Part shown: positions 18,399 to 51,258 of the stretch, piece by piece | Numbering within the stretch: the stretch's first letter is position 1 | How the letters are laid out: each line of letters opens with the position of its first letter | Source of the DNA: Pomphorhynchus laevis | Lineage: Eukaryota; Acanthocephala; Palaeacanthocephala; Echinorhynchida; Pomphorhynchidae | DNA: 64,000 bases | Direction: 5' to 3' | Assembly: GCA_012934845.2 (NCBI GenBank) | Contig: WNNJ02003713.1 | Location: 18,280 to 82,279 of the forward strand | Program-made: the position numbers and the translations under genes | The notes under the pieces: generated by a model | Databases searched by the model: none | What the model saw: only the letters and a program-made list of their open reading frames with translations | What the model was told of the DNA's origin: nothing

Positions 18399-21300
18399 CT
18401 AAAGTAAATATGTGAACGGAGATTAATCTCTACAGCATTCAATTAAAATAACAAAAAATAAAAATTATAAATTTATACGTGACATGATGCTTTGCGTTAT
18501 AAAAATATTTTTTATGGCCAGGCTTATATGACCTTATTTTAATTAAAAGAACTTAATTTAAAATTTAAAAGAATTTAGTTTAAACTTTAGATGAAGCGTT
18601 TACCGGATTGCAGTTTAAAATTTGTTTCTAAAATTAGTTTTAGATCAAATTAGTTTTAAATATTTTTTAGAATTTACATAATATAAGTTGGTTCAAAAAA
18701 TTAGCAAATGAGTTTATGAATTAGACACGGTGCAGCTGATTTCAGTGTTGAAATGCTAAGCCTTAAAAATGAGTGCACGCTACATTCATGTCTTATCATT
18801 GCAGGTTATTTTAATGCTTAACATCATCATTACTCGAATAGATTAGGCAGTTGGAAAATACTTTGCTTGTGTTGAGCTCGAACAACACACAAAAGAAAGG
18901 TTGGTCATACGAATGTCATAACGGCAGGAGCTGTATTGACTTTTGTTCACCTAAAGGTTCGCGATATGAAAGTAATGTAGAATACAGACTCGTTCTTAGT
19001 ACGAGCACAAATCAGCCTCATGTATCATCAACAATAATAATGTAATCCGTTCAAACATTAAATCTGGTCCACGTTACAGTATAACTGTAAGTTTAAATGT
19101 TCACAATTTTCGTGCTGCAATTAATACTTGTACGCTTTAGATGCTAGTTTATGCGGTATGCGAAAGTATCATATAGTATCGTTTGGTACAAATAGAATAT
19201 CTCGTTTAGGTATTGAAAAACTGACATTAAAAACAAACTGACTATTTCGATTCTAAATTGTTGTAAATGCAGAAGGTTTAAGGCTTATCTGCACTTACTT
19301 ATCTGTAAATGCAGATAAGTAAGCAACGAGTACACAAATCTTCGTCGTTTGTATTTTAAGGCAATGTCAATATAGGGCTAAGATTGGCTGAGCATGCCTC
19401 TTGAAGGCTTTCGTCATCTTCTCTATAAGCCAGTTTTCTTATCCCACTTGCTAAATAGTTATCCAAAGTCGATCCTAAGTTCGCAGATTTATTTAATCAC
19501 GCCGTATACTCGATTATATTGACGTAATCCACGTTACGGCAAGCGTCATCTAGTATATATACTATCATTAGAGGTTACCATTCAAAACTTTGCTGTATTG
19601 CAGTACCGGTTACCAGACTAGTATTTCGTGTTTTGCAAATTATTGCACGCTCTCTAGTGTGCCCACAACTGTCATTGCTACCACTACGGGAAATTGATAG
19701 CTTGAAGGCTTTCGTCATCTTCTCAATAAGCCAGTTTTCGTATCCCACTTGCTAAATAGCTATCCAAAGTCGATCCTAAGGTCGCAGATTTATTTAATTA
19801 TGCCGTTTACTGAATTATATTGACGAAATCCACGTTACGACAAGCGTCATCTAGCATATATACTATCATTAGAGGTTACTATTCAAAACTTTGCTGTATT
19901 GCAGTACCGATTACCAGACTAGTATTTCGTGTTGTTGCAAATTATTAAACGCTCTCTAGTGTGCCCGCCACTGTCATTGATACCACTACGAGAAAATTGA
20001 TAGCTTGAAGGCTTTCGTCATCTTCTCAATAAGCCAGTTTTCGTATCCCACTTGCTAATGGCTATCAAAAGTCGATCCTAAGTTCGAAAATTTATTTAAT
20101 CACACCGTTTACTCAATTATATTAACGCAATCCACGTTACGACAAGCACCATCTAGCATATATACTATCATTAGAGGTTACCTAGTCTTAAAACTTTGCT
20201 GTATTGCAGTACCGGTTACCAGACTAGTATTTCGTGTTGTTGCAAATTATTGCACGCTCTCTAGTGTGCCCACAACTGTCATTGCTACCACTACGGGAAA
20301 TTGATAGCTTGAAGGCTTTCGTCATCTTCTCAATAAGCCAGTTTTCGTATCCCACTTGCTAAATAGCTATCCAAAGTCGATCCTAAGTTCGCAGATTTAT
20401 TTAATCACGCCGTATACTCGATTATATTGACGTAATCCACGTTACGGCAAGCGTCATCTAGTATATATACTATCATTAGAGGTTACCATTCAAAACTTTG
20501 CTGTATTGCAGTACCGGTTACCAGACTAGTATTTCGTGTTGTTGCAAATTATTGCACGCTCTCTAGTGTGCCCACAAATGTCATTGATATTACTAACCGA
20601 AATTGATAGCTTGAAGGCTTTCGTCATCTTCTCATAAGGGCTAAGATTGGCTGAGCATGCCTCTTGAAGGCTTTCGTCATCTTCTCTATAAGCCAGTTTT
20701 CTTATCCCACTTGCTAAATAGTTATCCAAAGTCGATCCTAAGTTCGCAGATTTATTTAATCACGCCGTATACTCGATTATATTGACGTAATCCACGTTAC
20801 GGCAAGCGTCATCTAGTATATATACTATCATTAGAGGTTACCATTCAAAACTTTGCTGTATTGCAGTAACGGTTACCAGACTAGTATTTCGTGTTGATGC
20901 AAATTATTGCACGCTCTCTAGTGTGCCCACCACTGTCATTGCTACCACTACGGGAAATTGATAGCTTGAAGGCTTTCGTCATCTTCTCAATAAGCCAGTT
21001 TTCGTATCCCACTTGCTAAATGGCTATCAAAAGTCGATCCTAAGTTCGTAAATTTATTTAATCACACCGTTTACTCAATTATATTAACGCAATCCACGTT
21101 ACGACAAGCGCCATCTAGCATATATACTATCATTAGAGGTTACCTAGTCTTAAAACTTTGCTGTATTGCAGTACCGGTTACCAGACTAGTATTTCGTGTT
21201 GTTGCAAATTATTGCACGCTCTCTAGTGTGCCCACAACTGTCATTGCTACCACTACGGGAAATTGATAGCTTGAAGGCTTTCGTCATCTTCTCAATAAGC

Positions 21301-24300
21301 CAGTTTTCGTATCCCACTTGCTAAATAGCTATCCAAAGTCGATCCTAAGTTCGCAGATTTATTTAATCACGCCGTATACTCGATTATATTGACGTAATCC
21401 ACGTTACGGCAAGCGTCATCTAGTATATATACTATCATTAGAGGTTACCATTCAAAACTTTGCTGTATTGCAGTACCGGTTACCAGACTAGTATTTCGTG
21501 TTGTTGCAAATTATTGCACGCTCTCTAGTGTGCCCACAAATGTCATTGATATTACTAACCGAAATTGATAGCTTGAAGGCTTTCGTCATCTTCTCTATAA
21601 GCCAGTTTTCTTATCCCACTTGCTAAATAGTTATCCAAAGTCGATCCTAAGTTCGCAGATTTATTTAATCACGCCGTATACTCGATTATATTGACGTAAT
21701 CCACGTTACGGCAAGCGTCATCTAGTATATATACTATCATTAGAGGTTACCATTCAAAACTTTGCTGTATTGCAGTACCGGTTACCAGACTAGTATTTCG
21801 TGTTTATGCAATTTTTTGCACGCTCTCTAGTGTGCCCACAACTGTCATTGCTACCACTACGGGAAATTGATAGCTTGAAGGCTTTCGTCATCTTCTCAAT
21901 AAGCCAGTTTTCGTATCCCACTTGCTAAATAGCTATCCAAAGTCGATCCTAAGTTCGCAGATTTATTTAATCACGCCGTATACTCAATTATATTGACGTA
22001 ATCCACGTTACGGCAAGCGTCATCTAGTATATATACTATCATTAGAGGTTAACATTCAAAACTTTGCTGTATTGCAGTACCGGTTACCAGACTAGTATTT
22101 CGTGTTGATGCAAATTATTGAACGCTCTCTAGTGTGCCCACAACTGTCATTGCTATTACTAACCGAAATTGATAGCTTGAAGGCTTTCGTCATCTTCTCA
22201 ATAAGCCAGTTTTCTTATCCCACTTGCTAAATAGTTATCCAAAGTCGATCCTAAGTTCGCAGATTTATTTAATCACGCCGTATACTCAATTATATTGACG
22301 TAATCCGCGTTACGACAAGCGCCATCTAGCATATATACTATCATTAGAGGTTACCATTCAAAACTTTGCTGTATTGCAGTACCGGTTACCAGACTAGTAT
22401 TTCGTGTTGTTGCAAATTATTGCACGTTCTCTAGTGTGCCCACCACTGTCATTGCTACCACTACGGGAAATTGATATTCTACCATATTGCCATTGGTCAA
22501 TGGTTCATTGAAATTCGCATCATTTTTATGATAGTGCGCTGTATTTTTTATAATAAATTAATAAAAATTTATTTATTAATTAAATTTATTTATTATAAAC
22601 AATTTATTTCGAATTAATAAATTAATTTATTAATTAATATAATTATTGATTTAATAATTTGATTAAAAATCTTTTATTAAAAAATTGTAATAATATAAAT
22701 AATATTAAATTAACAAATCTTCATTTAAAACATTTTTGTTTTTATTAAAACAATAAATAGTAAATTGAGAACTTACCTGTACGTTTTGAGATGCTCGCTT
22801 AAGTATAATGCCTTGAGAAACTTGAGTTTTATCTGTTTCGATTTCCCCTTTAATTCAGAAATAAATTATTCATTTTATTGCTATCAAACAACTATTAAAT
22901 ATTAGAATTAGTCTTTATTAATTTGTTTACTCTCCATTAAATCTAAAATAATCATCATCAGTATTCACCTGTCCCTATTACTTGGTGTTTATCTGCCTTA
23001 ATATTTTGATTAACAAGTCTTATAAATAGCTCTGGATCTTTCATAGATAATTCACTAATCATATTACTCGGTACATATCCAAGAGAACCACTAAGTTCGC
23101 CAATGAAAAATCCATCCTGATCCTGCTGTCCGTGTATCTAAATGTGAACAATCAATGGATAATATGTAGCAGTATAATTAAAGGAACATTAAATATTGAA
23201 ATTACGATAACAGATAGAAGCACCAATAGAACGATAGAAAACGATCATAGAGATTGGCAAAATATCAAGTAAAATTTTCCTTCTTTATTTGGTCCAGCTC
23301 CAATAATTCTTTATCAATAAATGGATCATTATCAACTATTTAAGATCGAGATTTATATTTACTAAAATATAATTTTTTATTATTCCATATAATAAAGAAC
23401 AGAAAACCTAAAAATAGGTATACTTATTTTTTACTATTATAAAAAGGAAAATTTTATTTATCAAAGTCATAACGATTTGTTATGTATACGAATTCTGGAC
23501 ATGCCGACTTGCCCGTACGCACATTGAATTTGCCCTCATTAGCGTAATAGCCAATTTATATCTTATTGTATTTACATATTTGCTATATCCAGCATTTGAG
23601 TTCGTATATATTTTTGCTGCTAAGCTCCTAATAAGATCGTTTGCCGCAACACGTGCCCACCAGATGCAGAAATATAAACGGACAAAATATGCCGTGTTCA
23701 ATCTCACACACTCTCTTTTTTCGTATTTCGCACGTTTTAACAGCTTGTGATAGTTAAAATTTCTCGATGATTATTCATAGCTGTATGATGGGGCATTCAT
23801 CTTAAAACACACAAATGTTAAAATATGACCTCACCAATCTCCACCATGTATACGAAAAGAAATATAAGCACGCGATCCAGCGTCTATTGTTGCTGTCTTA
23901 CGTTGAAAGGTCATCGCTGGTTATACCGGTCTAAGCTCTGGCTTTATTGCAATGACGCTACAAGCTTGCTTCAGAATCTTTCGATAGTAAATCCCTGATT
24001 ACATTGTGACGTATTATTGGTAACGCATCCAGATTACAAATTAATACTGGGCGATAGTACACTCGCTTCCGCAAGACACAAACGTGGTGAATTTTCCAGC
24101 GTCTAACCTTATCGGGCAGCAATGGCATCTTTGAATTCTATAGAGGTTAGAAAAAGGTTGCTAGTCTTTAATGATTGAGGTTCAACTAAGAAGACGCTCC
24201 TTTATCACATGCATGATTGAGTGAGTTTCGTAATCCATCATCAAGAATCGGATGCAAAAGTTTTTTATTCACTAAGTATTTCTTTCTTAGCTCCAATTAC

Positions 24301-27300: not shown

Positions 27301-30300
27301 TGGATTTGTAATCTCTAAAGAATCAATTTAATTCTTTATAAATCAAATATATAAATTATATAAATAATTTATATTATTTATATAATATAAATTATATTAT
27401 TTATATTATTAATCAAATATAAATTAACAAGAAATTAAAAAAATATTAATTATAAATTATTATTTATCGTGCTTATAAAATAAGCAAGATAATAAGAATA
27501 AAATTTCAAATAACTTAATTAATATTATAATTATTTAATACAATTATATAATATTATATTTGCGAATTAAATATTAAAATTAATTATTACTTAATAAATA
27601 TGCTGTGGGACGCCTTTCCCATAAAACGGCCTCCAATCTAGACTGCACGAGCCCAATAACGCCTCTTTATTGCGACTTGTCGTTGATCGTTCGAACGAGA
27701 TGAACTCAAGAACCCTCTGCAGCAATGGTTCGATCTCGGCATACGTCCGCAAGTTCCTAAGCAATTAAATTTCTGGCCTCATTGTGCCGAATGATAAACT
27801 TACATTCATGTTTACATGAATGTAGGTGGTTTAGATCCCATATTGGTTGTTTGATCCAATTGATTTGTTTAGATCCCATATTGATATCAGTGGTTGTTTA
27901 TGGTTCAAGTAAACAATATTCAGTAACTATTTATTAATTATTTAATACTTATAATTACTTATTACTTAATATGTTGTTAATAATATTATTATAATAATAT
28001 TTTATTATAATATAATAAAATATTATATAATAAAATATTATAAAATATAATATTTTATATTATTATTATTATTATTTTATTATTTTACTAATAAAATAGA
28101 AAATATTAATATTTTTAATATTAATGAAGAGAGATTTTAAATCTTGCAAAGTCAAGAATTTCATTTAAATACATTAATGAGTGTGAAAATTGCAATATAA
28201 ATATAAATTCATTAATTATTTTACAAATAAATAGTTTAATAAAGATGTATGTGCAGCTGTTTAAGATTCTCATTTTTATAGTCTAAATCATGCACAGCTA
28301 AATCTATATATCAATATCTAATAAACAATCGGAAATAGTATCAATTTCCGGTTGAAAATATCAATATAAATAATATTATAATAATTAATATTATATTAAT
28401 TATATTAGTAGACGGAATATTAGCTTTAAATAGCAAATGAAAATCATTTCAATCGAATCCTCAAAAATGACGACTTCTACGTTTATCAAAATCCTTCAAT
28501 TGACAGAAGCTAACTGAAAAGGTATAATTTAATCACTATAAAAATGTACTTTAAGAATTTGTCCAGCATAAAATCCAAGTTCTTCATTGCACGTATCGAC
28601 GTTTGGTGACATAGTTGTCGGTTCATAATCATAGAGAGCAATATAGAGTTTGACCTCGTCTTTATTATTGTTTTGATCAGTTGAAATACGGTCACTAGAT
28701 GCTACAATCTCGGATAATTGATTATCTAAAACCAAGTTAGTGTTTTAATTTCATATTTTGAATATCAAATAATTGAGATTATTTTAATCTACGTTCAATA
28801 TTTCGAATCTCAATATTTGTTTTATTATTTCTATTATTTTCAATTAGCTGAGTAATATTTCTCAAAACAAATCTAAAAAAAACGCAAAATAGAAATATTA
28901 TTTTAACGTAATATTATGTAATATAATATCAAATAATATTATATTATATTATATAATATAAAATTATATATATTATTTTAATATAATAGTATATTATTTT
29001 TTATTATTACAAACGATTTTCCTGCTTATCAACTATAAAATTAATATCAACTAGGAAATTTAATTAAGACCATAAAGTCTTAAGGAGCTTCCCATTTCTG
29101 CGTATTTGATATTTATGACATATATATTTATTGATATTTATTACAAGGTGTAGTATGCGAATTAGCAGAGTTTCAGCCATTCGGAGTTGTTGTACTGAAT
29201 CAGATTTAAAGATGATTTCGAAGCTTTTCTACATATTGTCGATATAAATAATAAATGATTATATAAGATAATATAAATAATATATTATATTACTAGGTCA
29301 TGATACTTAAATATTATTTTAACTCTTAAGATAAATTTATAAATATAAATATTTAGATTTAAATTTTAAGTATTTATCTTAAAATATAAAATAGATGAAA
29401 ATATATCTTATTATTATAAATATCTAAAATGTAAATATATAAATATATATTAATATAAAAATATATATTATATAAATATATTAATCTTAATATTTAAATA
29501 TTTGTATTTTAAGACCAATATATATTATATATTGATACTTAAAATTTAAGTATCAATATAAGTATATTAATACTTAAAATTTAGAATCTATAGTTAAGTG
29601 TTATAGAAAGTGACCATTCCCTACTATTTCATAGTAGCAAATTTGAGAGCCGAAACTAGACAACTAATATGACATCAACTGCATTAGCACTTAAAACACT
29701 TACATCAGCTGATGCAGTAATTATCAATGCAACTAATGCAGTCATTATATACCAAACAAAAGGCAAAATGATATTATACAAGTACGGTAACTGCTTTATA
29801 AAATATACGAACCTGTCTGTGTCGGCACTTCGACCTTCACAGGCACTTCTGTTATATGCTCGTGATCTATCTTTAATAAACAAATTTAACATTAGATGTG
29901 CTATATGTTAAATACAAACCGAGCTATCGACGCTTTTGGGATGTTTTTGTATTGCAAAGTTTTCGCCAGATAGATCTGCAATAGAGAAGATATCACTTCC
30001 AGGTAATACAATTTAAAGCACTCAATACCGTTATTGAAATATATTGAACTTGACTTGATAAACGGTGATTGTTCTGGAATAGTGGGTATTGGACAAACAT
30101 CAAAAGTGCATGATGATTTCAAAGGCAGACCTGTTAAAAACATCGGATAAAAAAATCGCGCAAATAAAAATCGAAAAAATGTTGGGAATAACTAATTGCC
30201 TCCTAATTCACCAATGAAGCGGAATCGACAAAAGGAATAAATTTTCAAAATATAAATACATACGATTTTAGTACGCTTTATACAAATCTAGATTTAATAG

Positions 30301-33300
30301 ATATTAAAGATAAATTAGAAAATTAATCAATCTTGTCTCTATTTTACAACAGGGTAATCGAAATTAATACAGGTATAAAACACTATTTCAGTATTAATTA
30401 TACAAATGAATTTTTAGAACAGACAAAAGGAATAAATTTTCAAAATATAAATACAAACGCTTTTAGTACGCTTTATACAAATCTAGATTTAGTAGATATT
30501 AACGAAGCGTTAGTAAAATTAATTAATCTTATATTCGGAAAATGATATACATATATATGTAATAATAATTATAACGCCATAATTTAAAATCTAACAAATT
30601 TAAACCATCAAATAAATATAAATATATGGATAAAATTGAATTATTAGAATCCTTAAATATTTTAATAAATCAAAATTATTTAAAGGTAGGGACATCCATA
30701 TTTATACAAATAAAAGGTGTTCCAATGGGTGATAATAGTAGCCCAATTATAGCTGTTTTAAAAATAAATTTAAAATAGAAAGATATAAAAGATCATAAAA
30801 AGATATAAAATATATGTTTCGATATATTGATGAATCCTTAAATATTTTAATAAATCAAAATTATTTAATTATTATTTGTACAAAAATCATGGATTCAGTT
30901 GAATGATCTAATTTAATGGATATATCGAAAAATTAATGATATTTTGATATGGAATTATGGTATTACCATATTTTGATACGGTGGTATTACTTTGTGGTAT
31001 CAAAGATACCACAAAATAAAATTAAAATTTTTCAAATTAATAAATCATCAAAATATTATTAAAAATAAATTTAATAACTTGGCAAAAATATTTAATGGAT
31101 AATATATAATGAAACATAAGGCAAGAAATGACGAATAAATCGCATAAGAGGAAATACATCATTGACAAAACATTCTAGAATCATTCAAATTATTTTAATG
31201 ATGTTATATTTTCATATTGTTAAAATATAACATCATTTTTATTTAGAACTTAGAGTACTTTATTAATTATTATTTGATTTGCTCTTAATTTTGATACTAC
31301 ACCGTTTAGATAGCACTTTGAGTACTACTATTAGTACTACTACTAATAGTACTACTTTCAGTAATACAAAGTAAATAATAATATTATTTTTAATATTAAT
31401 TTTTAATAATATTATTATCTGTATATATTTTGTAACTTTCTGATTATATCGCATACCATTATATGATTATTATACGATCAATTTTGATATACCACAAAAT
31501 TTAATTGATTACGAGAAAAAGTTAAAAATAAAAAGATTCACAGCACACCTTTTTTTTAAACTTTAATTGTTGGAATGTTTCTAAAAAAGAAATTGATCAT
31601 ATTGTTCAATTAATTAAGATTTTATAAATCATTTAATGCGAATTACGTTCTTATAGTTGAATTAATAAATTAAGTTAATAAATAAAAATGTAAAATATTC
31701 AAGGATTTACTGTTTAATGTGAATTTATAAATCTTCCGAAATTTAATTAAATTTTATATCCATAGAATTTGGCAATGAATTACTTAAAGTGATATACCTT
31801 TGATGCGTATTTTGTAGGTGTTTGCAGCCAAGTACCTAACACTTCTTCCATTGATTTTAAGAACGTGTTTGATGCTACTGTGTGCTGGTATCCAACTAAG
31901 ATTAACAGTCGAATCGTCATGATACTTAATTGTGAGACAGTCAGGAGCAAGCGAATCTAAACCGGAAATTAATTATATAATTAATTAAATATTGAATTAA
32001 AAGAAATTAATACAAATATTTAAATAAAAGACATCTTTCAATAATTTCCATATGGAAATTGTTGAAAGATTAAAGTTATGAAACAATCAGTCTTTATGAA
32101 GGATTTCAAAATTGATTGAGGTTATTAAAATTAATTATATTTATATATTTATATTAATATATAATAAATATATTAATATATAAATTAATTAATATATTTA
32201 TATTTATTAATTATAATTAATTTTTATTAAAATTAATTTTGAAAATAAATAATTCGACTTTTAATAGAAAAAAAATAATTTCACTCTCTCCACTAATTAA
32301 ATAAAATTTATAAAATGAGTGAACAATCAATTTATAATAAGATTTTATATTTTAGCAAATAACTATAACAGCGTAGAACGAATGTATCATGCTACTAATC
32401 AGTGACGTTTAATTATATACTTCATGACATTGCGTAATAATTTAATGTTTAATAATTTGAGATTTAAAAGGTAATAAAAATGATAACAAGAACCTGTATT
32501 AATCTTTGCAGTACATAACTTCCAATTTGAGATACCATCTTTTCCGACAAGACAAACAGATACCCGCTGAGAATTCTGAAAACAAAACGAATGCAAATCT
32601 GTTAAATGCTCATTTTATCGCTTGAACACTTAGTGAACAAGATAGAATCACTTTGAATTTAGAAATTGTAATCTAATTTGATTTCCTGCTTTAAATATTA
32701 ATTGCTAAATATTAATCACTAAAAATTAAATTGCTAAATTAAATAATTTAACGAAATATAAAAAATTGCTAAAAGCAACTAAAATATCTTAATTCTTTAA
32801 AATTCAGCGATTGTTTATTAATTTTATTTTATTAATGAATTAATATATATTATTGAAAGTATCAATTATTAAAATTTAATTTATTTAATATTTAATAAAT
32901 TAAATTTTTGCCGATCTGATTTCAACAAAGCGCACTTTATATTGAAAAATAACTTGTAGAATTTTCTTTAGTTTAGCTTCTTCTTTATCAACTTGTTTAA
33001 TAAAATCTTGCAAAATGTTCTGCATGTTAAACCCTACTCTATGTTTCGCTGTCTTTCGTTATGTATTTCTTCGTAAAATGTGTTTAATGAATTATCTTTG
33101 TAAGAAAATTAAATGCTTGTTGCGATATTTTGAACGAAATTGCAATTTTTTGAAAATTTACAATTTTAATTTTAATCTAAAAAACAAATAAATTTTATAA
33201 TAAAAACTGAAAGTTAAAAAAAAACCTTCAAAAAGCCAACAAAAACCATTGCTATCGTTTAATAAATTTGGATCCAAAATTATCTCTCTCAAGAGATAAT

Positions 33301-36300
33301 TTTGGAAATTATCTCTTAAGAGGACTGATAACGACACCATAATCACTGGATTGACATATTATCCCATTCTCAGTAATATGCACAAAAACGTCCGTTCTGC
33401 AGGAAGCAGAACGGACTGATCTGGTTAAGAGCGTAAGCCTCTTAAGCAAAGTGTCAGAAACGCCTTTATTCACAATGTCACACAGGCAACCGAAACGACC
33501 AGTGAGTACTTCATTCTACTGATGAGTGTTTCCAGGTACACATTGGTCGTCTAGAAGTGACATGGTGACAGAAAGTCGTGAATCGAAGTCCAGTCAATTA
33601 AGCAACACCATTTAGTATAAATGCAATATTTCGTAAGAAATCCTGGACCGTTGTTTACTCAGCACATCCGTGCAATACTATTATACCTGCCGTATCCATT
33701 AAGGATCCAACGAGTGCAGCGACAATTCAGCAACAACCTCTGCCTAGTGTTTAAGGGTGATCCGCACAGCAATTCGATCTGATTAAGAGTATATATAAGG
33801 TGTTGATTTTCTAGCTGCGAGTTGGGATCCATCATGGATGCTTTCATATGTATTTGTAAAATGTTTAATTAATTAAAACCAACCAGAAGACCAAGTGTGT
33901 TTTATTTTATTACAACGTTTCGAAACTCAGTGGGATCTTCTTCAAGTTAAATCAATAATTGTAAGAATTTTAATATATATACATGAAGAGGCATAAACAC
34001 CAGGCAGCATTCTATATATCCTTATCAGACTAAGAAATAGAACCGAATTATTCTTGCATTATTCAAAGTCGCTACGTATGCCCAGTCATCCTATGTGTGA
34101 CGACAAACTTCACAACGGTATACGCGTTTCGCTCTAACTGAGCTCATCAGTATCGTGACTTCTATAATCATCTACAGGCACCTTAACACACGCTTGAACA
34201 GTGTTTAAAGCTCGAAAAACAGAACTACCCTTAATCTGAATCATCGGAGGGAATTTAGCATAAGCTCTGTGCACGGCAGTGCATATTGCAGTTTAACCAT
34301 GCATCAGGCGCTAAATTCTTTTTAATAGAAATGATGTTTAACAGGGACACTTAAAAGTGTGCAAATATATAAAATATAATTTGTTGTTACAGCTGCCCTG
34401 GGACGCTCACTGGCGTACTCATAAATATATCACTATGTTTTCCTCATGACGAGGCATAAACACCAGGCAGCATTATATATATCCTCATCAGACTAAGAAA
34501 TAGAACCGAATTATTCTTGCATTATTCAAAGTCGCTACGTATGCCCAGTCATCCTATGTGTGACGACAAACTTCACAACGGTATACGCGTTTCGCTCTAA
34601 CGGAGCTCATCAGTACCGTGACTTCTATAATCATCTATATGTACCTTAACACACGCTTAAACAGTGTTTAAAGCTCAAAAAACATAACTACCCTTAATCT
34701 GAATCATCGGAGGGAATTTAGCATAAACTCTGTGCATGACAGTGACTATTACAGTTTAAGCGTGTGTTAAGATTAAGGGTAGTTCTGTTTTTCGATTATC
34801 AGAAGGCTGGATACTAACTCTTCTCTTTTTCGAAATTTGACTCATCTGAGATTCGAGCTGTCGATCTCCATGCTGGGCTTGCGCTCTTAACTGCTATGTA
34901 TGAATCCAGAATTATCAGATTTCACACAGTATATGAAAGCTTCCATCATGGTCTCATGCATTGAAAACCAGCATTGTTCGAGATTATCGCTGCATTGTCC
35001 GAGATGTTCTCCAGCATGCTTATCACAGATTCTTTTGCTTGAGATCATGCAGATCGCTTGAAATCGGGACCGATGGTCATGTGGCAGAAATCGTGCGAAA
35101 CGAAAACAGCTGTTGCATTGGTGCCGTTAGTAGTCAGGGTGTATGAAATTGGATATATTGAAGAAAATATTCTACAGCTGGTTTTCATTGCGAAAGTCAC
35201 CCTGTGTGATATAACAACTATTCAATATATATTCAATGTAGTAGCAGATTGAAACCAATATGTAGAGAAATCGGTTGAGACGGAAACGGCTGCTTTATCG
35301 ATAAGAGTAAAGAAAAAAGTGGAATGAAAATGACAACTAATAACTGAGTGATTACGGACTTAATAAGGGAGCCTTATATCATTGGCGTGTGGATGGATAA
35401 AATACGTATTCCAAAATATTTCGAAAATTTTATCTTTATAATTCGTTCGTAACAGTGCGGTGTACTTTGAACTGATTTGAATTTCTTATAATATGTATTA
35501 TGATAAAGGTATAAACCGAAACTAGTTAAATACCTACAATTGAAAAAGGCTTCGGCCGAAACCGTCCATAAATCTGTAGTGTTAATTGTTGAGTCAATTA
35601 ATTTAACAAGCGCACTAGTTTTGAAAATCAAGCAAATTAACGATATTTTGTGGATATTTATATTTAAGATAATATAGCCTCAATAACATTAAATATTTAA
35701 TCTTACAAGATATTTAAAAAGTGTCAACAAATATTATATTCTTTTCAAACAAGTTTTATATATAATGGTGATGCACGGATGTGCTGAGTAAACAACTGTC
35801 CAGGATTTCTTACGAAATGGCATTTACATAAAATTGTGTTGCCATGTCATTGTCAGTACCATGTCATTTCTAGACGGCCACTTTGGCACCGAAATGATGG
35901 ACCACTTGGCAACATCATTAGAATTAAGTACCCAGTGGTCGTTTAAATAGAAGTTATAAACCGAAACAATAAATAATGCTTCTCCAACCAGTTTTATATA
36001 TGGTTAAAAAATTAGGTCTTGGTTAAATATTAGATATACACAATTGAAAAAGGCCTTGCCCGAAACCGTCCATATTGCTAATTGTTGAGTCGTTAAAAAA
36101 TATAAATTGTCTTGGTTAAATATTAAGTATATTAATATTATAATATTAATATATATTAATATTATATGAATCAGTTAATTTAATAAACGCATTATTTTTA
36201 AAAATCAAGCAAATGAACGATACTTTGTGGATATTTATATTTAAGATAATATAGCATCAATAATATTACATATTTCATCTCACAAGGTATTTGAAAAATG

Positions 36301-39300
36301 TCGAGTTTAGCATTTTTAATATACCGATTTATCTAATTGCTAATCTGGTTATTCATTTTTACACAAAAATTTAAAATTAAAATATACCTTTCCATTAACT
36401 AAAATTTCATAGACATCAGTGGATTGTTTAGTACAATACAATTTTCCGTCAACAAATATTTGATATCCATCAATTGAGAATTCATCATATAATGGAGGAG
36501 GCAACCATTTAATTTTAGATCCAGATGAACAATATTCAACTTGTTGGAGTACAGGTGCCGGAGCAACTGAAATTTAAAATGCTAATATTTAATTAAATAT
36601 TATTAATGTGAATATTCTAATTTTGAAAACGAAATTAACCTTTTATTGCTTAATGTCATAAAGATTCCATCACTTTTAATATTTAATATCATTCTATTAG
36701 ATTCTAACATTGATTTTTCTAATTTTTACTGATAAATAGTTAATTATTACTATTTATGAGTATTTTTTACTGATCAATGGTTTAATTGAATGATATTAAA
36801 TTAAATTTGATTAAATTTATTATTATAAATACATATTGAAACGACATTCTTGATACGACAATTTTCTGCTAATTTGGATTTTTTGCTAATTTTCTGCTAA
36901 TTTTGGATTTTTTGTTATAATTTTACAATATACAAAACAACAAAATATTATTAAAAATTTATAAAAACTATTAATATGAACTTGCTTTATTATTCACCCG
37001 TTATATTTCTGTATTACGTTTTTCATCATAATTAATAATGCCAAGTTATCAGCTGATTGAGTCTACGTATTTTATACAAATAAAATTTTTATTTTTAAAT
37101 AAAAAAGATAATAAAATAGATAATAAAATAGATAATTTTTATTATTATATAAAAAAATTTAGACCTAAAAAAAATTTTGGTTTCTTATAAACATACAATG
37201 ATACTAAACAAAGAGAATTGAAATTTATGATTATTAACAGAGAGAATTTAAACTATCTTGATACCCATTAACTACTTACACAAATTACAAGATTAATATA
37301 CACAATCTAAAGTAAATACAACATTCTATACAAGGAACTTCTACGAACTTCTACGCCCACTTCGAGAATAACGAACTTCTACGAACCTCCACTTCACAAC
37401 GAACTTCTACGCCCACTTCGAGAATAAACGAACTTCTACTCCGCACTTCGAGAATAAACGAACTTCTAACAACGAACTTCTACGCCGCACTTCTGCAACG
37501 AACTTCGTTTCACTACGCTAAATGTTCAGACGCCGGATTTCTGATTTCAAGTAATTGATTTAATTTATTGTATTTTAAATTTTGCCCAGCCGAAAGGCGA
37601 AATGGGAAATAAATCGCTGCATTATTATATAAAATAAATAATAACATTGTTTTTATTTTAACATTTTTAACATTATTATATAAGATTTTATTCAATAGAT
37701 ATCTACATAATTATTTTTAATAGTAAAGAATAAATCAGATCAGATAACCGAGTCTTCGTATTTTTTATAAATCAAAAATACAGATAAATAATTATAAATA
37801 AGAAATAAGAAAGAATTATATAAGAATTTGTAGAATTTGATACGACATTATTTTTCTTCTAATTTAAAAACTTCTATAAATCAATAAAATATTATTAAAA
37901 TATTAAATTTACAATGTACCAATCAACAAAATATTATAAAACATTTATTTAAACCATTAAGCGAGAAAAAATAATGGATGGATAATAAACAATATGCTTT
38001 GTATTAGAATAGGGTACAATAAATAATCAAATTTCTTTAGAGGAAATACGTCAATAGCGCTTATCTGGCCTTTCTGTTATGTTGAGTCGAGGAATAGGGG
38101 CCAAAACCCGATAGCATAGCAGTTCCTCCTGATGACCTATAATCCTTATTCTGATACATCGTTTGTTATTTATTAGTCAATTCATAAAATGACTTTTATT
38201 TTAACTTGATTTAATATACAAATAAATACAAATACAAAAATAAATACAAAAATATTTAAAACCTGATATTTGAAAATATTTTAAACCTGATAGCATAGCA
38301 ATTCCTCCTGATGACCTCTAATCTTTATTCTGATACATCGTTTGTTATTTATTATTCAATTCATAAAAATGACTTTTATTTCAAATTTCTATTTTAAATT
38401 TAAAAATTATATAAAATTATAAAATGTTATATTGTGGTCATTTATTATTTATATTTTTAATTCTTGAATTTTATTTAGTATTAATTTTAATTTTTATTAA
38501 AAGCAACGATTATATTTAATACTTTATAATAATTTATAATTTTATTAAAATTTTTAAAAGTTTTAACTTTATAAATATATATTGTAAATATAAAAAAATA
38601 TATAAATAGTTATAAATAGTTATAAATATATAAATATATAAAACGTAAACTCAGGTATCTGATCTGATTTGCCACAGGCAGTGATTTATATTTATCGTTA
38701 TATAAATATAAATTGTATACAATCTTATATAACCATTTATTATTTATAATTATTTAACTTTATTTTTATTTATTTATAGCATAAAATACGTAGACTCAGT
38801 TATCTGATCTGATTTCTATGCGCACTGATATCATCTTAAGCATATCCACAAAAAAAATAAATGGATTTTAAAATTAATAGCTCCAAATTAATCCATCTGA
38901 TTTTTACTGATAAATAGTTATGGAGAAAAACACATCTGATTGTGAGTATCCGTAGTAAAACTCACGATCTCTTTCAATTTGAAATAAACAAACCAAGTTA
39001 TGTGCAACGCAATAAGATTTCAAAAGCAAATTTAAGATTTGTATATATTTTTATATGACAAAATATGAACGTTATATAAAACGAAATATAATAAAAAGTT
39101 AGCAAAGTTTATATGTCAATGAGATTAAATTAAACTTGATTATTATAAATCAAACTTGATAACCATAAATTTAACTAATTAATCACCTTTTATATGTTTA
39201 GACGTATTCAGCAATGAGAAGTCTGTTTGAACAGATAATGAGCTATCTAAAAAAGTTCAGAAATAAAAATGAATATTAAATTGTTTATTTAAAATATTAG

Positions 39301-42300: not shown

Positions 42301-45300
42301 TTTATATAATAAATAGATTGTTCACTCATTGGCTTCTGTTATTAATAAGTGAATAGAGTGAAGTAACAAAATTATTTTATTTAAATATCGAATTTTTGAT
42401 AGTCAACTGCTATCATCAATATAGGTTGTGTATCATAAGGACAATATATCATCAGACAACTGCTATCATGACAATTTATCTTGATGATGATAACAGTTGA
42501 CTCATACTTTTATTTCTTGATTCGATTTCAATTTAAATGAAAACGAGAGAGTACAACGCTTTTTGTGATGTATCACAAAGTTCGTTAAGTTGTAATTACC
42601 GGAAGAATCACAAACAGCATATTTTCTAGATGACTAGTTTATTTACTATTACTATATGAAATATCTGATGGATAGTGCTCTTGACAATGGCCTGGTTGGT
42701 ATATATGCAGTTTTATAACAGGATTATTAGATTTTGTATAGACAAAACCATTTTAAAGGAAGATTAGGTTGTAGTCAATGTAATTGGAATTGACAATGTC
42801 AATTCCAAATTGCCAGTCTTTAACGCTGGCAGTATTTGTTTCATAAAAAACTGTGTACTGTTAATGTGGAGGATACTACGTGCTATGTGGTTTCCGTAAA
42901 TAGAGGTTGCTAGACCATATGCATCTTAGTAAATATACACATGAGAAGTTAAAATTTTAACTTTTTTAACTTGTGGGAAGTTAAAAATCATGAATACGAT
43001 TAGTTAAAAAACTTGATTATTACTATTATATTAATTTCAGATCTTCAATTACCCAAAATAAAATGATTTTACTGAACACCAACACACATTTTTATAAGAA
43101 AATACATAAATACTTAACGTAATTTTAAATAATTATGAATAAAATGCCAATATTCGACAGTTTAGAATCAGAAAGTTTAGAATCCTTAAAGTTTAAAACG
43201 CTCATGATTAAGAATTCAGCCGATTCCCTTTGAAATAACTACTGAGATTGTAATATTTTATAATTATCTGTGTTTTTTCGCATTTATTTATTATTTAATA
43301 AATAATTTTTTATTTATTATGAAGATAATAACGGATTTTCCATGGCGTTAATAAATTGATTTTAATAAATTAATGATAAAGAAGGTGTATATCTGGATAT
43401 GAACATTAAATTAACATTAACTAAAACTACTATTAATTTATATCGTAAAGATGACATATTTAAATTTACAAGAAACATATTTTTGCATGAGCATTCATGC
43501 ATACCATATAATATAAAATATAATACATTAAATAATGAAATTTTAAGAATTGCAACAATATGTAATGATATTGGCTTTCTTCAAAATCATTTAAATAATT
43601 TAATAGATACATATTTTAAACTAGGTTACTATAAAAATAACATCAAGCAGAAAATAGTAAAATATATAAATCAACACAATAATATAAAGAATAAATTTAA
43701 ACTCTTAAGTGGCAAATTTTATGGATGGATAATAAATAATATACTTTGCATTAGAATAAGATACTAGATAGTTATTTCAGAGGAAATACATCATTAGCAT
43801 GTATTTGGCCCAACTGATATGTTGGGTAGAGGAGTTAGGGGCCGAAATCAGATAAAATAGCAGTTCCTCCTTATGACCTCTAATCCTTATTCTGATACAA
43901 CGTCTGTTATTTATTAGTCAATTCATAAAAATGACGTTTATTTTAAATTTCATTTTTTAACTTGATTTAAATTATAGAAAATCTAAAAACAATTATTTAT
44001 TTTATTATTTAATTATTAAATTTTGATTTAGCATTATTATGTTTTGTTTATTTTATAATTATATAGCAATACGTAGACTCAGTTAGCTGATTTAATTAAT
44101 TTATTAACGGTCGAATCTTTTACAAATTGTGTCTTGTTTTTAGCATTTGAAAGCAACTGATGTATTTCCGAATTCTTATGGATTACAGAAAGTGCTTACT
44201 TACAGATTATCTAAATACCCATATAAATACCCATATACTAGTAAATATGTAAATTGTTTTATAAACAATAAATTTTTGCTGTAAATTGTTTATATAAAAC
44301 TTGTAAATTTATACGGTAAACAATTATTTTTAGACAAATTCTTAAATGGTTATGTCATTGATTGATTAATCTGAAGAAAATTATCAAATATGCAAAACAA
44401 TTATCAAAAAACAACAAATTATCAAAAAACAACCAAATTATCAAATATGTTAACCTGGCCATATTAAATACTTTGTATTTCCAAAATTTTTATTTTTAAT
44501 AAAAGTTGAATTAATAAACTATAAATGTTTATTTAATGTTTAAAACTAATTTATAATTAATAATAAATAATTAAATTATTGATAATTTATTAATATTTAA
44601 TTAATTTATAATTAATTAAAACGTCTTGTGAATATTCATGTTAACCACATTATAATGTTAAAGGTTATAATTAAAATTTAAAATCAATTAAACATATATT
44701 CATAGTTCTTAGTTAAGTAAATATTTTTTGCAGAATAAATATAATATTGATTTGCAAAATAAAAATAAAAGCGCTCTCTGAGATGACAATGCTTTAATTT
44801 TATTATAAAATACAATTTCACTTTTATAATAAATCTTTATTCCATAAAAACATATAGGCCCTAGAATTAGTGTCAAATTATAAATTGCTACATTTCAAGC
44901 GAGTTATTTTAAACTACATTAAAACTTAGTTGTACTTGATCGCTAGAACATAAACGATTTTATTTTTATCATAAACGAGATCGCTAGAACATAAACGATA
45001 AAATTGTTTAATCAGAGTATTTTTCCAATTGTAAAACATATATTTAATAAATACAATTACTTAATAAAAATATAAATAATTTTTTAAATTAATTAAATCT
45101 TTAATTAATTTTATTAATTAAAGATTGCAATCGTTTTCGACAGGAAAACGATGTCAACACAATTTTCCTTCTAAAAGAGCCAATAAAAAGTGAGCATAGG
45201 TTAAATCATTAAATCATTAAAGTGTCAATTTAATATTTATATTAAATTATAATTTTATATTATAATGTATAATGTATCCGGTATAATGTATAATGTCAGT

Positions 45301-48766: not shown

Positions 48767-48798
48767 GATAGCTTCCCCCGTCCATCTTATCTAACACA

Positions 48799-51258
48799 AT
48801 GGTGAGTAAACCCGAGCCTTTTTCACTGAATATCATTCAGTGGAATTCGGGAGGTGCTTCTGCCCTTAGACTTCTATCTGGTAGAGACGCAGATGTTATA
48901 GTCCTTCAGGAGACGCGGTCTATCCGTCTCCCCCAGGACCTTACTCGATTTATCCCAAAGCATATATGTTCCCACTATACTCCGTATATAACCCCACCTC
49001 ACTCCTCTTCGTCTCAAGGACTCTTGACCTTAGTTAAATCCTCATTAAGATCCTCCCTCCTATTAAACTTTACTTGTCCAGCCATGTCTTGTTTAGTAGT
49101 TTCACTTAGTAAGAACGGTAAACGCCTCAGTCTAGCCAATGTCTACATCCGTCCAGGGGAAATTCACAAGAACCGTGAACTCCTGGATAGTATTATTGAC
49201 AGCGGTTATGACATGATACTTGGGGATTTTAACGACAGAACTGGTCGTTGGATCAATGCAGCATTTCGCAGAGCTAGGAATGGTTATCTTATTCACAAAC
49301 CACCATCCCCTACCTTTCATTGCACATCAACAAATTCAATCCTCGACATTTTACTGCTTCACTCGAGGTGGCTGTTAAAACCCCTCTGCACGGAGCAGTC
49401 GCGCCAGCAATTGTCCACCTCTCATGACCTCATTCGTTGGAGGATAGAGGAGGATACGTTGCTGAGAAGGAGGTTTCACTTTGATCCGATCAGAGTGGCC
49501 TTCTTTCAGGCGGCAATCCGACTCTTCCCCAGAATAGGAAATGAGAGTTTAACCGAATTCAATACCTACCTCTCTTCGCAAGCTACAGCGATTCTATCGA
49601 CTACCTATAAAGGTCGTATATACAATCCCACTCCGACGAAACTCAAGGTCCTAGCAAAATTACTGAACCTCCCTAATCTCTCTGCTTCCGCCAAACAGGC
49701 CCTCTCGAATGAATACTGGAGCACTAGATACAGGTTCCAGCTGAGTAGGGATAGGACGAGTATCGCTCGTCTTAATCCTTCTCAGTCTTCCTTTTGGAAG
49801 ACTTTCAAGAAGGAGAAGTTTGTTTGCTGGAAGGATAGAGCATTGAGTTGGATAGGGAATGTAGGCCTTGAAAAAGTTTTGGAGGAGTCACTAGCCCTAC
49901 ACAACTATGGAGCCACTCAATCACCTCAACCAATCCCGCCTTGGTGTAACTTCAGGAGTAGAGATATATCTGTTACGGATATTCTTAACTCCTGGGGTCC
50001 ACTCCCGGGCACCTCCAAATCCTTCGCTCCACTTTCTTCTCGTGTTTGTCAGCTTTTGACAGCTGATCAGAGAAGAGAGGTGGCCGTCTCAATGCTTTTA
50101 GCATCCCCATCCGATGTAGCAGGCATCAATAATAGTAAGCGAGTTTTTCTTCCTAAGAAAAAATCCTGCTCATGCCCTAAAGATCTGCGACCCATTTCGA
50201 TTCAAAATGCCCTCATATCGATTTACGAAAAAGCGCTTGCGCGTAAAATCCGCGACCATTTAAGTAGGCGTAATTTGATCCCTCCAAGCTTTCATGGGTT
50301 CGTCAAAGGTCGCTCGGTCCATTCAGCAGTTGGTGAGGTGGAGCAGTTTTGTCGGGATAATAGCCATCGTCTAGTTGTGGCTGTTTTCCTTGACTTTTCT
50401 GCTGCATTTGACCGTATCTCCATTCCTTTTGTGATCTTTTCTCTCAGGTCCCTCGGGTTGCCTGCGAGAATTGTGAACAGGGTGGAGATCCTGCTGTATA
50501 CCAAGCGATTTTACTATGAAGACGACCCTGATGCACGTCAGTTCTACCCTATTACTGGTGTACCTCAAGGATCCCCACTTTCTCCTATCTTATATCTTGC
50601 TGCCTCTATTAATCTATTCAAAATATTTAAACGCGAACAACGTCTTGTGGTGTACGCTGATGACACCACAGCCCTGTTCACTGGACACAGGTGTAAAGAC
50701 GTAGTCTCTGACATCAGCCGTTTCTTTTTAAGATTAAAAGATCAGTTACCCATATCTAACCTTATTTTAAACTCCGCCAAATCGCAGGTGGTTGTCTTTC
50801 ATGGATCACCTGCGACGAAGCAAAAACTTAAGAGATTAGCACTCTCTGCGCTCTCGTCCATTTTTGCCTCAGAACCACTGCCCACCTTTACAAGTCGAGT
50901 AAAATACCTGGGGTTCACCGTTACGGTGAACTGGTCAGGGAAAGCTGACCTGGATAGACTCAAACGTATCCTGAAGAAAGCTAGGTGGGCCCTGAAACGG
51001 GCTCAGCATCTGTCGTTGAATGGGAAAACCCAAGTGCGCCTTTGGGGCACTTGGGCTATCTCGGGATTAGTCTTCTTTTCAAGAGGACGTCCCCCAGAGC
51101 AAAGACTAAGGTTTCTTAAGCTCCTCGTCTCGCGGTTACCCAGCATAGTCCGCACCGACTGGACTCTTCGGGGAGTGAAAGACCCCGGTTGGTTCAGTCG
51201 GAAGGCGGCGTGTTGGATAGGTTGGGGGGCTCAGATCCCTCTGGATTTGAGGCTGTAA
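48799..51258 (+). CDS. Non-LTR element ORF2, endonuclease-reverse transcriptase
   Basis: 819 codons. The AP-type endonuclease occupies about 1-225: NIIQWNSGG, VIVLQETRS (catalytic Glu), MILGDFNDRTG and LSTSHDLIRW (terminal His-Asp). RT follows: DLRPISIQNALISIYEKALA, HGFVKGRSVHSAV, FLDFSAAFDRIS (motif A), ITGVPQGSPLSPILY (motif B) and LVVYADDTTALF (motif C, YADD about 620). The thumb and a short end GVKDPGWFSRKAACWIGWG follow. There is no RNase H, as in Jockey rather than I or R1 relatives with it. All catalytic residues are intact, so the element may be autonomous. A decayed sister C-terminus lies at 16395-16520. Confidence 0.92.
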   Translation: MVSKPEPFSLNIIQWNSGGASALRLLSGRDADVIVLQETRSIRLPQDLTRFIPKHICSHYTPYITPPHSSSSQGLLTLVKSSLRSSLLLNFTCPAMSCLVVSLSKNGKRLSLANVYIRPGEIHKNRELLDSIIDSGYDMILGDFNDRTGRWINAAFRRARNGYLIHKPPSPTFHCTSTNSILDILLLHSRWLLKPLCTEQSRQQLSTSHDLIRWRIEEDTLLRRRFHFDPIRVAFFQAAIRLFPRIGNESLTEFNTYLSSQATAILSTTYKGRIYNPTPTKLKVLAKLLNLPNLSASAKQALSNEYWSTRYRFQLSRDRTSIARLNPSQSSFWKTFKKEKFVCWKDRALSWIGNVGLEKVLEESLALHNYGATQSPQPIPPWCNFRSRDISVTDILNSWGPLPGTSKSFAPLSSRVCQLLTADQRREVAVSMLLASPSDVAGINNSKRVFLPKKKSCSCPKDLRPISIQNALISIYEKALARKIRDHLSRRNLIPPSFHGFVKGRSVHSAVGEVEQFCRDNSHRLVVAVFLDFSAAFDRISIPFVIFSLRSLGLPARIVNRVEILLYTKRFYYEDDPDARQFYPITGVPQGSPLSPILYLAASINLFKIFKREQRLVVYADDTTALFTGHRCKDVVSDISRFFLRLKDQLPISNLILNSAKSQVVVFHGSPATKQKLKRLALSALSSIFASEPLPTFTSRVKYLGFTVTVNWSGKADLDRLKRILKKARWALKRAQHLSLNGKTQVRLWGTWAISGLVFFSRGRPPEQRLRFLKLLVSRLPSIVRTDWTLRGVKDPGWFSRKAACWIGWGAQIPLDLRL

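Follow-up and report, generated by a model that had tools for sequence, protein, structure and literature searches.

Structure of the insertion and its gene context

The window analyzed here, a 64,000-nucleotide stretch of the genome of the acanthocephalan Pomphorhynchus laevis, carries two hammerhead ribozyme cores on its minus strand. Direct reading located them where the original prediction had put them, with the cores and the predicted cut sites spaced by 463 bp (Table 1). The arrangement around them was not the two-LTR layout that had been proposed: it comprises one whole 463-bp unit and a 315-bp partial unit, with no body between them. The direct repeat, claimed to be 314 bp long, measured 300 nt without gaps at 95% identity, or 315 bp by BLAST with the 463-bp unit.

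Table 1. Features of the RIM-BP locus and of the hammerhead-carrying insertion (positions in the window)
Feature	Position	Strand	Evidence
ORF with RIM-BP SH3-2 exon (exon borders not fixed)	28532..28744	-	2csq, E 2.3e-10
ORF with RIM-BP FN3-2 exon (exon borders not fixed)	31787..31972	-	6q9m residues 103-155, E 8.5e-4
Fragment of a different 364-bp genomic tandem repeat, flanking	33442..33789	.	Repeat search
Penelope-like 3' end motif (CTTGAAGAAG...CGAAACGTTGT), flanking the insertion in the same orientation	33912..33946	-	By eye, against Penelope-like 3' ends
AT run of 9 nt at the 3' junction of the insertion	33973..33981	.	Direct reading
Full 463-bp repeat unit	33982..34444	-	Self-comparison and BLAST
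Hammerhead copy A, downstream on the transcript	34115..34156	-	Direct reading, family alignment
Predicted 463-nt RNA if both sites are cut	34121..34583	-	Inferred from the cut sites; folded as a circle
Second, 5'-truncated unit (unit positions 149-463), 95% identical	34445..34759	-	BLAST
Hammerhead copy B, type I, upstream on the transcript	34578..34619	-	Direct reading, structural scan
29-bp head-to-head inverted stub (unit positions 205-233) at the 5' end of the insertion	34767..34795	+	Self-comparison and BLAST
ORF with the first half of RIM-BP FN3-1 (exon borders not fixed)	36352..36573	-	6q9m residues 20-64, E 0.009, weak

RIM-BP exons were matched through PDB sequence searches of single ORFs. 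On the three ORF matches listed in Table 1, the hammerheads would lie in sense within a RIM-BP intron, as had been claimed. The further statement that this intron separates two FN3-1 exons could not be confirmed, since no exon encoding the FN3-1 second half was found. The minus-strand ORF 40654-40490, which in the PDB sequence search matched only SH3 domains of other proteins, was taken for SH3-1 of RIM-BP. A Pfam scan of the intron frames, with X at stops, returned no family even over the exon ORFs and is thus too blunt for short exons.

A larger hammerhead-carrying element, framed by outer inverted repeats (33493-33685 with 35761-35944), was considered and dropped, because these flanks are pieces of other repeat families with periods of 364 and 443 bp. 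The 364-bp tandem repeat (window 33442-33789; L032-L038) forms arrays of its own, and ORFs that look Penelope-like by eye, without a Pfam match, stand near two of its copies (L033 and L037). A hammerhead suspected in this repeat from CTGATGAG (33519, plus strand) was rejected, as no GAAA was usably placed in the copies read. The pieces of the 443-bp-period family occupy window positions 34796-36020, and two segments of this family alternate in opposite orientation (e.g., in C1939 and C2099).

Structure and predicted folding of the two hammerheads

Read directly on the minus strand, copy B (34619..34578) is ACGGTA-CTGATGA-GCTC-CGTTA-GAGC-GAAA-CGCG-TA-TACCGT and copy A (34156..34115) is ACGATA-CTGATGA-GCTC-AGTTA-GAGC-GAAA-CGCG-TA-TACCGT. 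Both had been predicted to contain every core element and a closing stem I. The core is indeed complete in both, but in copy A an A replaces G, and the resulting A.C mismatch breaks one pair of stem I. Copy B combines its complete core with a stem I of 6 bp, a stem II of 4 bp with a 5-nt loop, and a minimal stem III, and it shows the marks of a type I hammerhead (CUGANGA and GAAA, the order of the stems, and UH at the cut site). Stem III of both copies consists of one C-G pair and the A15.1-U16.1 pair beside the core, with a 2-nt loop. The predicted cuts fall between 34584 and 34583 in copy B and between 34121 and 34120 in copy A; these sites are 463 nt apart on the same strand, and the release of a 463-nt RNA is predicted, in line with the earlier expectation.

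A strict structural scan of both window strands returned copy B as its only match, copy A being missed because of its A.C mismatch in stem I, and it gave no match in 100 first-order Markov sequences of window length. The exact 42-nt sequence of copy B is present in 71 of the 168 distinct rows of the unit alignment described below. At the Rfam gathering cut-offs there was no match for either copy, and a permissive search with RF02275, whose cut-off is 52 bits, scored the copies at 16.9 and 14.4, low values that we put down to the near-absent stem III. Scores below threshold had been named in advance as grounds for refutation, and such scores were obtained; the test is nevertheless insensitive in this case, because the second hammerhead of this genome, which looks canonical and has a normal stem III, also stays below threshold (35.9 and 30.9 bits). 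RF00008 had no match over the whole genome and likewise none in 14 control genomes, and is therefore uninformative.

A review (PMC6466107) names two features for double hammerheads, and both are seen here: a palindromic stem III strand (ACGCGU) and copies in tandem. Because stem III is minimal and ACGCGU is palindromic, cleavage would be expected mainly as a double hammerhead formed by the two tandem copies. In the energy model, the double hammerhead had -28.7 kcal/mol for B:B, versus 2 x -10.1 for the singles, and -22.5 kcal/mol for B:A, versus -14.0 for the singles, a gain of about 8.5 kcal/mol in both combinations. Alternative dimer folds still beat the double hammerhead (-30.9 versus -28.7 for B:B, -26.8 versus -22.5 for B:A, and -25.4 versus -16.3 for A:A). 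Single copies folded no better than their shuffles (z of -0.39 and -0.02). For copy B the minimum-energy fold was not the hammerhead, although its centroid had stems I and II. With so short a stem III, cleavage of single copies may be weak, and the double hammerhead may be the form in which the pair has to work. Since in that form a cut would pair one copy's core with the other copy's cut site, the damage in copy A should mainly hurt the upstream cut. The 463-nt RNA folded better than shuffles in linear form (z of -2.69, in a register shifted by 5 nt); for the circular form z was -1.97, with 5 of 100 shuffles equally good.

The 463-bp repeat family

The family searches covered 249 Mb of the genome in 3,242 contigs. 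The pattern of the 35-nt hammerhead core, with up to 2 mismatches, had 1,454 matches and the reversed control pattern had none, so the core is not a product of chance. The 463-bp unit itself had at least 194 BLAST matches, and the nearest copies elsewhere in the genome were 97% alike to the window unit. The family occurs as partial dimers, long tandem arrays (the first 9.3 kb of C616 hold 19 full units and partial ones), and dispersed copies. It is thus common as both a tandem and a dispersed repeat, which bears out the earlier view that the hammerheads are element-borne and belong to the world of Penelope elements and retrozymes. The GC content of the unit is 39%, and no ORF of at least 130 aa was found within a unit in L001-L066.

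The state of the ribozyme was read from an alignment of the matches spanning unit positions 250 to 400, which has 168 distinct rows (197 before identical ones were removed), 7 gapped rows being scored as failures. The hammerhead core was kept in 139 rows and ACGCGT in 145; the core together with all stem I and II pairs was kept in 108, and the other 60 had a core or stem defect or a gap. Conservation did not differ significantly between the hammerhead and the remainder of the unit (mean divergence, 0.033 versus 0.042; equal medians; Mann-Whitney test, P = 0.27). Stem columns were about as variable as the unit median (0.024), and three of the five loop II columns fell in the 92nd-96th variability percentile of the unit. 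Among the changes in the stems, 46 were one-sided and pair-breaking, 23 were one-sided and still paired, 3 were double and unpaired, and only 2 were compensatory, so that the covariation test of the stems over the 168 rows gave no useful support. This pattern fits young copies that would mostly be decaying freely, with no positive evidence of selection on the ribozyme.

Insertion junctions and orientation of the copies

Junctions were read in loci taken from the best BLAST hits and from core-pattern places, mostly in listing order, and the counts that follow describe these loci and not a random sample of the 1,454 matches. Sixty-nine copies differed in their flanks and had 100 nt or more of 3' flank (a few near-duplicates were left, L047 with L048); in these, the 3' ends clustered at two places of the unit, positions 430-463 (32 copies) and 66-90 (24 copies). 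Beyond the ends at 430-463, the match continued for some 15 bases when the flanks were read (...AGGAAAACATAGTGAT). The 5' starts were scattered over unit positions 1 to 398, with position 1 in 11 of the 69. Within equal flanks of 120 nt, an AT run of length 12 or more was present on 26 of 69 3' sides versus 5 of 76 5' sides. By place, such a run stood in the next 120 nt after 16 of the 32 ends at 430-463 and after 8 of the 24 at 66-90; none of 2,000 random 210-nt stretches of the window contained one.

Opposite-strand neighbors within 500 bp numbered 20 head-to-head versus 4 tail-to-tail in 52 loci, and 19 versus 4 in a count of 49 loci. The latter omitted duplicates (L010, L011, L021, L029, L031, L039, L048, the window, and L014) and also L004, L009, and L019, three loci that the 52-locus count included. 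When loci were drawn from the listing of core-pattern matches, a head-to-head pair was found in 6 of 20. Close opposite-strand pairs (up to 1,100 bp apart), picked by eye among the matches listed for each motif (about 100 per search), were head-to-head in 4 of 4 cases for the 463-bp family, 7 of 7 for the second hammerhead family, and 9 of 9 for the Penelope-like 3' motif. Junctions and head-to-head pairs may be read as the outcome of target-primed reverse transcription, which would sometimes start from both ends of a break.

Penelope-like elements and a second hammerhead family

Penelope-like elements are given as about 15% of the transposable element content of P. laevis in a paper on rotifers (PMC7943196). 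One ORF of this kind (L050:3438-4967) matches RVT_1 of Pfam and has 137 matching proteins, with GIY-YIG in 37 of the best 120. The ORFs of L006 and L023 had GIY-YIG matches below its cut-off, those of L016 and L060 were assigned by eye, and GIY-YIG had 75 matches genome-wide. In L006, L016, L023, and L050, the Penelope-like 3' ends carry a hammerhead-like hairpin (CTGAAGAAG...CGAAA), whose loop has 5 nt in L016 and L023 and 7 nt in L006 and L050. The form with the 5-nt loop occurs at 169 exact places in the genome, and its control at none. Different complementary stems were seen among the matches listed (GGGC/GCCC, GAGC/GCTC, GGAC/GTCC, GTCC/GGAC, and GACC/GGTC, with a few exceptions), so the pairing is kept while the letters change. 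An additional A separates core and stem II in this hairpin, which is distinct from the hammerhead of the 463-bp unit. A (TA)n run lies between the 463-bp unit and the Penelope-like element in L006, L016, and L050, where the two face each other in opposite orientation.

Window positions 43369-43767 hold a fragment that by eye is a Penelope-like reverse transcriptase, of a type also seen near the 463-bp units L013, L014, L047, and L058; a Pfam search of this piece gave no reverse transcriptase match.

The second hammerhead family, which has a proper stem III, was seen beside copy L024 (L024:447-524 on the minus strand and 1159-1236 on the plus strand). It has 646 places in the genome at up to 3 mismatches, many of the listed ones lying about 350 bp apart, and is probably a second, canonical retrozyme.

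Relation to known hammerhead elements

The published description of metazoan retrozymes is of 150-450 bp tandem repeats that have low GC content and type I hammerheads and lack LTR, PBS, and PPT (PMC7229834). With the non-LTR retrozymes of coral, mussel, and axolotl (Cervera and de la Pena 2020, PMC7229834), the P. laevis unit shares a non-coding tandem repeat of a few hundred bp, a GC content under 45%, one type I hammerhead per unit, copies in the thousands or near, and a well-paired RNA. We found it in tandem units, from partial dimers to the 19-unit array, low in GC and non-coding, and with the signs of retroposition, 5' truncation and preferred 3' ends, the latter at two places and not one. 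Further traits of the class are target-site duplications of more than 4 bp, where present, and linear and circular monomer RNA; short duplications would be masked by the (TA)n flanks of the P. laevis copies. By the sequence features tested, the 463-bp unit is a metazoan non-LTR retrozyme. It differs from those described in PMC7229834 in its length, just above the range of 150-450 bp, in its acanthocephalan host, in its (TA)n 3' junctions, and in its head-to-head pairs. Its stem III is minimal, whereas most invertebrate motifs are described with a stable helix III (PMC7761336). Plant LTR retrozymes, with a type III hammerhead in LTRs and with PBS and PPT, are not matched, the order of the P. 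laevis motif being that of type I.

Penelope-like elements have minimal type I hammerheads (Cervera and de la Pena 2014; Lunse 2017; as cited in PMC7761336, PMC6466107, PMC6155905, and PMC8490949) that share with the P. laevis motif a minimal stem III, a tandem arrangement, and a palindromic stem III strand, but the P. laevis repeat is non-coding and no reverse transcriptase ORF of its own was found. Two systems can be likened to it by description: the W-elements of Schistosoma mansoni, which are satellite-like and also have an extremely short stem III (PMC8490949), and the newt satellite hammerhead, which acts as a dimer due to its weak helix III (PMC6155905, PMC6466107). The W-elements are a separate set of families, and functional evidence for their hammerheads is reported by the authors (PMC8490949). 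The amniote intronic hammerheads (RECK, CTCL; PMC6155905) are likewise type I and placed in a host-gene intron; they are described as conserved across species, whereas the RIM-BP pair belongs, as one tandem copy, to a young repeat. A word search of the P. laevis genome paper (main text) gave no mention of ribozyme, hammerhead, satellite, or Penelope. A non-exhaustive literature search found no report for Acanthocephala, a word absent from the 15 papers listed of 1,772 matches. Of note here are the host phylum, the (TA)n junctions, and the common insertion habit, in a kind of mobile element that was already known.

Origin and mobilization of the repeat

The original prediction likened the repeats to Penelope/retrozyme pseudo-LTRs. 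Extended to the family, the 463-bp unit would serve an autonomous Penelope-like element as its pseudo-LTR, and a solo or truncated remnant would be what the window holds, which agrees with the tandem minimal type I hammerheads reported from Penelope pseudo-LTRs (PMC7761336) and with the Penelope-like ORFs near several 463-bp copies (L050, L006, L023, L016, and L060). We hold this to be decidedly improbable: the unit is a free-standing tandem repeat that has no ORF of at least 130 aa (L001-L066) and forms an array of 19, and the Penelope-like ORFs of L006, L016, L023, and L050 are followed by a different 3' end, with the CTGAAGAAG...CGAAA motif. Moreover, in three of these loci (L006, L016, and L050) unit and element are opposite in orientation across (TA)n, and by eye no Penelope-like ORF framed by two same-orientation units was seen in the loci examined, which are a small part of the copies. 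It is also improbable that the family is plain satellite DNA with a decaying hammerhead and no present RNA activity, its arrays made by unequal exchange and its intronic copies being debris. In agreement with this, the hammerhead does not exceed the remainder of the unit in conservation, defects of core or stem or gaps occur in 60 of 168 rows, and copy A is damaged; yet the scattered 5' ends and the 3' ends clustered at (TA)n resemble reverse-transcribed insertions, and the core is intact in 139 of the 168 rows.

The sense orientation and the two tandem copies, by which RIM-BP pre-mRNA would hold both sites, might point to a function of the intronic pair in RIM-BP expression, through pre-mRNA processing or a released circular RNA, like that of the conserved amniote intronic hammerheads. 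Such a function is very hard to credit, given that the insertion is one of 1,454 matches of a young family whose nearest copies elsewhere are 97% alike, that one of its ribozymes is damaged, and that its 5' end is truncated. Nothing seen points to a conserved role in RIM-BP, where the insertion is most likely a passenger.

We consider it quite likely that the two copies represent a non-LTR retrozyme, present as a partial dimer and bearing a minimal type I hammerhead; it would lie as a passenger in sense in a RIM-BP intron and be cleaved as a double hammerhead, circularized, and mobilized by Penelope-like elements through target-primed reverse transcription. In this retrozyme cycle, a transcript would be cut at both hammerheads, and a host ligase would close the 463-nt RNA to a circle. 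This RNA would then be copied into new (TA)n sites by a reverse transcriptase, most likely one from a Penelope-like element, in target-primed reactions that would sometimes start at both DNA ends simultaneously. Penelope-like elements have been called a strong candidate for moving animal retrozymes (PMC7229834), and the retrozyme of P. laevis is probably mobilized by them, with a common head-to-head insertion habit. A bolder version, tentative and in our view rather unlikely, is that Penelope-like reverse transcriptases prime from both ends of (TA)n breaks and copy two (circular) RNAs towards each other, leaving head-to-head pairs in both kinds of element, and that intronic copies borrow host promoters, RIM-BP pre-mRNA being one source of 463-nt circles. 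The insertion orientation common to the two hammerhead families and the Penelope-like elements, among the matches listed, bears on what moves animal retrozymes. Since the copies are young and numerous and share this orientation, the question of mobilization can be tested by junction sequencing. Overall, the interpretation given in the original prediction is partly supported, and what lies at the locus is a real, common, and young mobile element in an unremarkable position.

Other repeats in the window

Window positions 48772-51258 hold a LINE-like ORF of 828 aa, 61% of which aligns to a P. laevis protein with 82% identity; its other relatives, among the matches listed, have 23-30% identity. 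Positions 19359-22557 form a repeated stretch in which one frame recurrently yields the same peptide (QVGYENWLIEKMTKAFKLSIS...).
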